From Hyphomonas sp. (GTDB taxonomy: Bacteria > Pseudomonadota > Alphaproteobacteria > Caulobacterales > Hyphomonadaceae), in assembly GCA_017792365.1 (NCBI GenBank), contig CP051229.1, forward strand, positions 1,488,001 to 1,552,000: 64,000 bases of DNA, written 5' to 3'. The notes below the pieces were generated by a model that saw only the letters and a list, made by a program, of their open reading frames with translations, was not told where the DNA came from and ran no database searches. Each line of letters starts with the position of its first letter. Position 1 is the stretch's first letter. The position numbers and the translations under genes were made by a program. Positions 54,801 through 57,255 of this stretch are shown here, piece by piece.

Positions 54801-54881
54801 ATCGAATTGAGTCGCCCGAGCGTTGACATGTGCGTGCACCACCCCAATTAATCACGCACCGGGGGATTCTATGGGCGGTTG

Positions 54882-55547
54882 ATGGGCGAGAAGACTTTAA
54901 AGCAGCAGAATCAGGTCGGGCTCGGGCTTGTGCTGCTCGCGAATGTTCTATTGTTCTATGGTTTGTCCCATGCGGTCTGGGTTCTGGAACTCAACTGGAG
55001 CCAGGTTGGACAAGGATGGTCAAATCTTCTTCCGATAGGTTTCGCTGCGATCGCGGTCGCAATTCTCAACGCGCAGATTGACGCCGATACCAAGGCGCGT
55101 CTCGTTTTCATGAGGTGGCAACACCCACTTCCGGGCAGCCAAGCATTTACGAAACTCGGTCACAGCGACCCAAGGGTCGATATGCAAGCGCTCCATCAAC
55201 GCTTGGGTGATTTGCCAACCGAACCAAACGACCAGAACCGGCTTTGGTATCGACTATACAAGGAAACTTCAAGCGAGCCGGCTGTCCTCGATGCTCACAA
55301 GGAATACCTCTTCGCGCGCGATTACTACGTGCTGGCCATCGGCATAGTTATCGCCTTCGGAGCCGCATCATTCTGGCTGATCGAGTCGACCTCAATCCGT
55401 GTCGGATATGTTCTAGGCCTGATAGCGCAAGTTGCGCTGACTGGCCAAGCAGCCAGAACAAACGGACGTCGCTTGGTATGCTCGGTATTGGCGCTCAGCG
55501 TTCCGCTGCTCGGAATGTCCGCTAGCAATGGGGGAAACTCAAAATGA
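54882..55547 (+). CDS. Multi-pass membrane protein of an accessory two-gene operon
   Basis: 221 residues with hydrophobic segments at about 13-32 and 47-64, a soluble middle of about 85 residues (RLVFMRWQHPLPGSQAFTKL; RVDMQALHQRLGDLP; NDQNRLWYRLYKE) and two or three more segments from 149 on (YYVLAIGIVIAFGAASFWLI). The RW-x-x-PLPG and QNRLWYRLYK patterns recall membrane proteins found in proteobacterial accessory islands. The downstream MBL gene starts inside its last codons (ATGA at 55544-55547), so both proteins are probably made together. Base composition is lower in GC than the surrounding chromosome. Function unknown. Confidence 0.7.
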   Translation: MGEKTLKQQNQVGLGLVLLANVLLFYGLSHAVWVLELNWSQVGQGWSNLLPIGFAAIAVAILNAQIDADTKARLVFMRWQHPLPGSQAFTKLGHSDPRVDMQALHQRLGDLPTEPNDQNRLWYRLYKETSSEPAVLDAHKEYLFARDYYVLAIGIVIAFGAASFWLIESTSIRVGYVLGLIAQVALTGQAARTNGRRLVCSVLALSVPLLGMSASNGGNSK

Positions 55548-56347
55548 GGGTTCACGTTTTCAATGTGGAACACGGTGCCTGCGCTTGGATCCAAGCGGAA
55601 GGCAGAAACGTTCTCGTGGATTGTGGTCACAATTCCACTCGCCAATGGTATCCGGGAACTTATCTCAAGCGCGCCGGATTATCTTCGATCGATGCTTTAT
55701 TTATAACAAACTACGATGAGGATCACGTAAGCGGCATAATAAACCTTTTTGATCACGTCCACGTCCCAAGAGTATTCCGAAATATGTCCGTGTCGCCAAG
55801 AGAAATTCGGACGCTGAAGTCAGAAGACGGCATGGGGCGAGGTATTGAGTTTCTAGTCGATACTCTAGACTCTTGGTCAGGGGAGTGCGGCTTCGGCGAC
55901 ATAGGCTTCCATACGGTGGGCATTGAAACTTTTTTCAACTCGCCGCGTGAGTTTAATGATGAAAACAACTTGAGTTTGGCTACCTACTTTGATCTCTCTG
56001 GGGTAGGATTTCTGTTTACTGGGGATTTGGAGATAAGGGGCTGGGAGAAGCTACTTGAGCGTCCTAGCTTTCGCGAGATGTTGGCCAAGGTCGACGTCTT
56101 CTTCGCCTCACATCACGGCAGAGAGAGCGGCTGCTGCGCGGACGTTTTCCAGTATTGCAGGCCGACATTCACAGTGATTTCCGACAAAGCCAAAGGCTAT
56201 CAAACTCAAGAAACGACCGATTGGTATCGAGCACGCACATTGGGGGGCTTCTTCAATGGAGTCGAAAGGAGAGTCCTAACAACGCGCCGAGACAGGAGCT
56301 TTTATTTCGACATCTACAACGGCGAGTACAATGTAGTTGGGTTCTAG
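55544..56347 (+). CDS. ComEC/Rec2-like MBL-fold hydrolase with altered metal motif
   Basis: 267-residue metallo-beta-lactamase-fold protein of the ComEC catalytic type: MRVHVFNVEHGACAWIQAEG starts it; SIDALFITNYDEDHVSG is the metal motif region, in which the usual SHxDxDH reads TNYDEDH (first His replaced by Asn). GVGFLFTGDLEIRG supplies the aspartate, and VFFASHHGRESGC the later histidines. It has no membrane segment, so ComEC-like nuclease or phosphodiesterase chemistry in the cytosol is plausible. The start overlaps the membrane gene by ATGA. Low-GC, codon use unlike neighbours. Confidence 0.8.
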   Translation: MRVHVFNVEHGACAWIQAEGRNVLVDCGHNSTRQWYPGTYLKRAGLSSIDALFITNYDEDHVSGIINLFDHVHVPRVFRNMSVSPREIRTLKSEDGMGRGIEFLVDTLDSWSGECGFGDIGFHTVGIETFFNSPREFNDENNLSLATYFDLSGVGFLFTGDLEIRGWEKLLERPSFREMLAKVDVFFASHHGRESGCCADVFQYCRPTFTVISDKAKGYQTQETTDWYRARTLGGFFNGVERRVLTTRRDRSFYFDIYNGEYNVVGF

Positions 56348-56437: not shown

Positions 56438-56526
56438 GACCGAGCCGGGCGTCAGTTTGGTTTCCGGCGGCTCACGCGCGGGCGGCTCAACATCCCATGC
56501 GGGGCTCAACGGCATCTCCGGCCATA
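56438..56526. repeat. Imperfect direct repeat, copy 1
   Basis: Begins GACCGAGCCGGG and ends ATCTCCGGCCATA; matched by 56749-56837 with equal distance (82 bp) between the two end blocks. The shared inner block is GTTTCCGGCGGCT. Confidence 0.65.
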
Positions 56527-56539
56527 GCCCTCCCCCTTT

Positions 56540-56653
56540 CCCCGCTCATCCCGGCGCAAGCCGGGATCCAGTCCAGAGGATAGAGCCGGGCGCAGCCCGC
56601 CAAAACGTAGCGTGTTCTCCCATGGATTCCGGCGTTCGCCGGAATGAGCGGGG
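56540..56653. repeat. Composite extragenic palindrome
   Basis: The outer arms CCCCGCTCATCCCGGC (56540-56555) and GCCGGAATGAGCGGGG (56638-56653) pair with one mismatch. Each side contains its own hairpin: ATCCCGGC-GCAA-GCCGGGAT on the left and ATTCCGGCG-TTCGCCGGAAT on the right. This is the layout of paired REP elements. Confidence 0.8.
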
Positions 56654-56748
56654 CGGGGTTCGTGCGGGATAACCCAAAAACTATCCCACACCTCCCCGCC
56701 CGCCGCATACTACCCAGACCTCACACCCACGAAGGGCGGGACCGGACC

Positions 56749-56837
56749 GACCGAGCCGGGTGAGGCGGGTTTCCGGCGGCTGTGCGGGGCGGGGTAACGT
56801 CCCCCCAATGCACGGCTGAACGGCGTCTCCGGCCATA
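56749..56837. repeat. Imperfect direct repeat, copy 2
   Basis: Second copy of the element at 56438-56526, with the same boundary sequences and spacing but several internal differences. Confidence 0.65.
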
Positions 56838-57055
56838 ACCTGCCCTGGCTGCCCGAGAGGGACAGCCTACGCCGCAGGCTGGGAAAGTGGTCCCATAGGA
56901 GTGAGAGCAAGGCGAAAAAAGACCCGGCGGGGCGCGGTTTCGCGTCCACAGCAAACGCCGAGTAAACGGCACGACGGACAAGCAGCGCCCCGCGCCCTTC
57001 CTTGTTTACGGATTGATTCACGTCCTCGGGCTTCGCCCGTGGACGATCAAACCGT

Positions 57056-57118
57056 GGTTCATGAACGGCCGGCTCGATCGCGTGAGGACCAAGTCCGAAC
57101 GCGTGAATCGAACCGCCA
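57056..57118. repeat. 63-bp direct repeat, copy 1
   Basis: Starts GGTTCATGAACGGCCGGC and ends GAACCGCCA; differs from copy 2 at five of 63 positions. Confidence 0.85.
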
Positions 57119-57192
57119 GATAGAAATGTACCTCCACGTCTTCGGGTGATGGAGTTACGTGCGCATGCCCGGCCGCGACAGGCCCGGAACCC

Positions 57193-57255
57193 GGTTCATG
57201 AACGGCCGGCTCGATCGCATGAGGACAAGGTCCGAATGCGTGAACCGAACCGCCA
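57193..57255. repeat. 63-bp direct repeat, copy 2
   Basis: Second copy 137 bp after the first. Both contain TTCATGAA, a perfect 8-bp palindrome. Confidence 0.85.

Follow-up and report, generated by a model that had tools for sequence, protein, structure and literature searches.

A PDC-M48B-family metallo-beta-lactamase-fold protein and an unannotated membrane partner in Hyphomonas sp. as a candidate mobile anti-phage cassette

What are two small, overlapping genes of unusually low GC content doing between the housekeeping genes of a Hyphomonas sp.? The 64,000-nucleotide stretch of DNA analyzed here (the window) comes from a one-contig genome of 3.40 Mb in which each of the two genes is present as a single copy. 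They encode a multi-pass membrane protein (M) and a metallo-beta-lactamase-fold protein (MBL), and their features, in window coordinates, are as follows.

54882-55547, + strand: M, 221 residues, with two transmembrane (TM) helices, a cytosolic helical domain and two further TM helices; the proposed effector.
55083..55277, + strand: residues 68-132 of M, its conserved cytosolic domain, LVFxRxxxPLPGxxAF...DxRxDxxxL...QNxxWYxLY.
55530..55535, + strand: GGGGGA, a ribosome-binding-like site for MBL within the 3' end of M, read from the sequence.
55544..55547, + strand: the four-base ATGA overlap of M and MBL, read from the sequence.
55544-56347, + strand: MBL, a 267-residue metallo-beta-lactamase-fold protein of the PDC-M48B family (PDLC04674).
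55709..55726, + strand: MBL N56-x-D58-x-D60-H61, in place of the ComEC H-x-D-x-D-H; invariant in 33 of 33 homologues and aligned to 9ic4.
56111..56122, + strand: MBL H190-H191-G192-R193, in place of the ComEC HHGS; invariant in 33 of 33 homologues and aligned to 9ic4.

The initial annotation had described a two-gene unit overlapping by ATGA, lower in GC than its surroundings and apparently inserted as cargo. The overlap at 55544..55547 is as described, and its −3 spacing recurs in many homologous pairs. M starts with ATG, a TTG lies directly upstream at 54879, and no sigma-70 promoter was found upstream of the gene. The low GC was likewise borne out: among the genes inside the window M (0.54) and MBL (0.49) have the lowest values, every other called gene being at 0.58 or above, and their third-position GC of 0.60 and 0.56 compares with 0.90 and 0.86 for two neighbors, the flanking acyl-CoA dehydrogenase (ACAD) and nitroreductase-like genes, both housekeeping genes as read from their sequences. 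About 1 kb of downstream repeats had been taken as a further mark of insertion. The repeats are real, with palindromic and 63-bp repeated units in the intergenic region 56494-57255, but this DNA matches 20 places across the Hyphomonas sp. genome; it is a dispersed intergenic repeat, therefore uninformative on an insertion boundary, and was rejected as the ends of an element. No tRNA was found within the window as an insertion site. The search for an empty site recovered the ACAD gene in 12 other genomes, always without the window's immediate neighbors, and no boundary can therefore be drawn. The low GC fits a recent gain, and so does a very patchy distribution among relatives: PDC-M48B, weak hits included, occurs in 4 of 200 relatives and in 7 of 385 genomes from the class, and M in 3 of 397 other genomes of the phylum.

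The MBL belongs to a named family, contrary to the earlier statement that no similar named system was known. It matches the PADLOC model PDC-M48B (PDLC04674) over residues 1-252 with an E-value of 2.5e-69 and Pfam Lactamase_B at 3e-8, hits to Avs1a, LmuA and the 6A-MBL enzyme being weak and at superfamily level, and larger relatives of the locus carry 6A-MBL genes. The AlphaFold2 model (pLDDT 92) is most similar to the MBL domain of ComEC (9ic4; TM 0.74, E 8.6e-15) and next to the phosphorylcholine esterase Pce (TM 0.66-0.67). Motif order and the NN-S and HHG motifs are also common to the window MBL and the ComEC domain. However, the window protein is free-standing, without competence or OB domains, and lacks the HxDxDH and HHGS of a ComEC-type nuclease: N56 takes the place of ComEC H598 and R193 that of S728, both invariant in the 33 aligned homologues. 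In ComEC, H598, D602, H603 and D700 are required for nuclease activity; the H598A domain is virtually inactive, D600A carries an approximately fivefold cost and S728A lowers the rate approximately threefold (PMC12455585). The window MBL retains ComEC D600, D602, H603 and D700 as D58, D60, H61 and D161, the last of these kept in 32 of 33 homologues. With two experimentally tested ComEC residues replaced family-wide, the earlier description as a ComEC-like enzyme holds for the fold but is unlikely to extend to a simple ComEC-like nuclease. The altered site suggests changed chemistry or a binding role, and the strict signature NxDxDH plus HHGR predicts lost or changed nuclease activity. Within our set of homologous loci (numbered with the prefix L), a histidine at the N56 position is retained only in divergent relatives, for example L011, L012, L013, L096 and L110. 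Apparent I/V-x-D-x-D-H variants were discarded; they appear to be an N-terminal IHDVDH stretch caught by the pattern, and L047, L080 and L101 carry N.

M has the soluble middle domain between helix pairs that had been read from its sequence. Both hydropathy and an AlphaFold2 model built from 25 sequences (mean pLDDT 85) give two N-terminal helices, approximately 65 conserved cytosolic residues modeled as short helices and two C-terminal helices. In an alignment of 25 homologues, P84, G85, A88, F89, D96, R98 and Q118 of the cytosolic domain are invariant, as are R146 and D147 just ahead of TM3. With the window sequence alone, a scan of genome contigs found no relatives; the family surfaced through MBL neighborhoods and tblastn of plasmids, its members have the cytosolic signature in common, and M is 37-40% identical to partners of MBL homologues. 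Searches with M returned nothing from Pfam, PADLOC or NCBIfam at E 1 or better and nothing from PHROGs at E 0.001. A fold search of the PDB and viral models gave nothing under E 0.001, and the best VIA-align match, Z 8.9 to helices of Cse1, is within the chance range for helical bundles. In profile comparisons M showed no relation to the PDC-M48A, Csx27-like or other four-helix partners of MBL homologues (probability ≤8%), with an hhalign probability of 1.3% for the PDC-M48A family and only 8% for the Csx27-like partners; the last two types are related to each other (96%). The proposed resemblance to SLATT/4TM effectors appears to be one of architecture: Pfam gave no match at E 1 or better, a threshold that a distant relation may escape. 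Identification of M as SLATT, Csx27 or PDC-M48A has no sequence support from Pfam, PADLOC and the profile comparisons.

Homologues of both genes co-occur, as the initial annotation's reading of them as a pair implies, and this was checked both ways. A census assembled 80 MBL homologues from species genomes, and a blind rule looked within 200 bp for a small multi-helix gene encoded on the same strand. Such a gene was found for 50 of the 80 homologues and for 3 of 188 control genes from the same loci; the association exceeds chance. On closer reading, a membrane-acting partner adjoins or lies very near the MBL in 76 of the 80 loci and is absent from four, counts that include near-duplicates and probably misassigned MAG contigs and so do not represent independent events. 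The 76 partners comprise 30 of the M type, 31 of a second four-helix cluster, six of the PDC-M48A type, two of a third small type, one other and six patatins, a few of them on the opposite strand or behind a second MBL-fold gene. In the reverse census, M alone was the query against plasmids, viral contigs and randomly chosen genomes of the phylum; each of the 17 loci it recovered holds an MBL-fold gene, encoding a PDC-M48B protein, a 6A-MBL enzyme or both. The contigs of L078 and L069, labeled Bifidobacterium and Thermoflexus, hold typically proteobacterial versions of the locus and are likely mis-binned MAG contigs.

The partner varies among close relatives of the MBL. In a tree of 84 MBLs, the window protein is sister to that of L035 (Henriciella), to which it is 57% identical (support 100/99), and the L035 partner is of the PDC-M48A type. 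L036, whose partner is also PDC-M48A-like (3e-61 for the type shared by L035 and L036), is sister to the viral-contig locus L140, whose partner is M (99/94). Across the tree the M label changes at least 10 times on supported branches. Supported branches with mixed partners indicate that the membrane partner has been repeatedly replaced around a conserved MBL. At L061, L070, L086 and L088, the membrane protein's place beside the MBL is taken by a patatin-like phospholipase without TM helices. As far as sequence comparison can establish it, then, an MBL-fold protein and a membrane-acting partner are encoded in one operon in which the partner has been exchanged repeatedly.

The pair also travels. 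Conjugative plasmids carry M with MBL, or MBL with a different partner, and three viral contigs have M with MBL, beside a Zot-like gene, tail genes and the gene for a major head protein, respectively. The first of these, a filamentous-phage-like contig (L140 5890-7452; IMGVR_UViG_2737471629_000002), has MBL and M directly after the Zot-like gene, with proteins 46% and 37% identical to those of the window. On a tailed-phage contig (L138 1-2461; IMGVR_UViG_2636416104_000004), three genes encode M, a second MBL-fold protein with weak likeness to PDC-M48B and the PDC-M48B MBL itself. On the Rahnella aquatilis plasmid CP042360, IS4-family transposase genes separate M from MBL (L010 8846-8950, L025 1860-2438) and 35 residues of M remain beside MBL. 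Homologous loci also adjoin type I restriction-modification, Hachiman, DISARM-like and DUF1156 anti-phage genes, in a scan of neighbor families for which genes were picked by size, not randomly, and in which several hits fall under curated cut-offs. The earlier proposal of a cargo-like, co-transferred pair gains support from these plasmid, prophage and defense-gene settings, and the predicted clustering with defense genes was found beside restriction-modification, Hachiman, DISARM-like and 6A-MBL genes. Co-occurrence, partner exchange, active-site change and mobility are thereby shown at the level of sequence.

Two named systems come closest. PDC-M48, itself a candidate, predicted phage-defense system, has the same two-gene layout and includes the window MBL as a PDC-M48B member; L035 and L036, near relatives of the window locus, have a PDC-M48A-type partner in M's role, but the A component was not found here, and PADLOC gave no match for M at E 1 or better. 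The pair would operate in the manner of PDC-M48, as a variant whose membrane partner differs: a PDC-M48B MBL joined to a membrane partner outside existing models, and so a variant of a known candidate kind. The second system, 6A-MBL, consists of an E2-E1-JAB cap2_3 protein and an MBL enzyme, both named anti-phage by NCBIfam, and its genes match operon type 6a as described by Iyer et al. 2006 (PMC1779556), with Polaromonas naphthalenivorans among the genomes listed for it. These genes directly adjoin M and the PDC-M48B MBL in about half of the M-type loci, that of Polaromonas naphthalenivorans included; an E2-E1-JAB gene lies near 16 of the 30, usually together with a canonical MBL gene, and adjacent proteins score 690 and 556 bits against NF058523 (cut-off 320) and 402 and 420 bits against NF058524 (cut-off 220). 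The window MBL reaches only 25.6 bits against NF058524 and is not that enzyme. No E2-E1-JAB protein (NF058523) is encoded beside the window pair, the best score in the genome being 55.8 bits against the cut-off of 320, so that the version in the window is the minimal one of two genes. Since one defining component of each system was tested and not found, the pair is a full member of neither PDC-M48 nor 6A-MBL; neither name was found in the open-access papers searched. Other comparisons are more distant. Some alternative MBL partners are weakly like Csx27/tm_4, the accessory membrane proteins of type VI-B CRISPR systems (E 5e-4 to 7e-7), but M itself has no such match and no Cas13 was seen nearby. 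SLATT/4TM proteins resemble M in architecture, with no resemblance in sequence at the Pfam threshold used. CBASS differs in its CD-NTase, which is not in the window operon, a two-gene unit with ACAD and nitroreductase-like neighbors.

A constant soluble protein, interchangeable membrane partners, mobile carriage and an optional ubiquitin-like module together have the anatomy of an abortive defense cassette. The initial annotation's idea of a phage-defense pair, with a membrane effector and an MBL, is the best reading, and we put an even chance on its specific form, a PDC-M48-like anti-phage cassette, minimal and horizontally mobile, in which the MBL controls an exchangeable membrane effector. 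Our best-supported guess is that the MBL senses or controls a ligand and that M acts on the membrane. As the constant component, the MBL would use a metal site one histidine short to bind, or slowly process, a ligand, nucleotide or nucleic acid, that infection causes to appear or to be depleted. M would be kept inactive through its conserved cytosolic domain by the MBL or by the MBL-controlled ligand; upon infection it would be released or assemble, damage the inner membrane and thereby stop phage production. Where the loci are larger, E2-E1 would carry out ubiquitin-like conjugation and JAB the removal, as one more level of control. What we infer is the sensing, the control and the membrane damage. 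Against the defense reading, the Hyphomonas sp. neighbors are housekeeping genes around a site whose empty form could not be demonstrated, no fold of known function matches that of M, and PDC-M48 is itself a candidate system.

A defense cassette has two main rivals, a nuclease that blocks entry and an addiction unit. M and MBL could together form a split ComEC, with M as anchor or channel and the MBL as an active inner-membrane nuclease that cuts incoming phage or plasmid DNA, providing superinfection exclusion on prophages and plasmids. The nearest fold is indeed that of the ComEC MBL domain, most metal ligands are retained (D58, D60, H61, D161, H190 and H191), and the pair sits on viral contigs, as do many entry-exclusion genes. 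We nevertheless consider this explanation unlikely, given the invariant N56 and R193 at positions aligned with H598 and S728, where substitution in ComEC leaves the domain virtually inactive or about threefold slower (PMC12455585), and given that a patatin phospholipase without TM helices is a poor fit for the role of a channel or anchor. As a toxin-antitoxin-style unit, M would be a membrane toxin neutralized by the MBL, with retention of the plasmid or island as the main benefit and phage defense secondary or absent. Two small overlapping genes on plasmids and phages, with a membrane-active partner nearly always beside one conserved soluble protein, are what such a unit would look like, but the antitoxin would have to neutralize four-helix proteins of no detectable relation as well as a patatin enzyme. 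Moreover, chromosomal single copies exist, the window's included, and the PADLOC and NCBIfam associations point toward defense; addiction is, in our assessment, quite unlikely.

A role unrelated to phages, in which the MBL, in the manner of Pce, would be a phosphodiesterase for a lipid head group and M its membrane partner, draws on the second-ranked fold match (TM 0.66-0.67) and on the lipase nature of the patatin partners. Envelope or lipid housekeeping is nonetheless highly improbable for genes with the very patchy distribution given above and with mobile elements and defense genes as their settings.

M represents a family of membrane proteins that defense-finding databases currently miss. 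A broader version of the cassette reading, which we hold tentatively and think rather doubtful, is that a catalytically altered MBL serves as the constant sensor of abortive cassettes into which at least four classes of membrane-acting effector with no detectable relation in sequence, a phospholipase included, have been swapped, with E2-E1-JAB control in half of the M-type loci. In that case M would be the founding example of an unannotated family of membrane effectors. MBL-fold proteins recur in defense systems (Avs1a, LmuA, RTasMBL, 6A-MBL and PDC-M48B), and this family offers a direct test case in which a single conserved MBL is combined with any of several interchangeable membrane effectors and, optionally, with a ubiquitin-like module.

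Some homologous loci have a more elaborate layout. At L044 and L046 (800-12756), an MBL and a four-helix gene are flanked by a DrmD-like helicase and an AAA_14/DUF4143 gene on one side and by a DUF1156 anti-phage-like methyltransferase on the other, the surrounding families having been scanned for L044 only.
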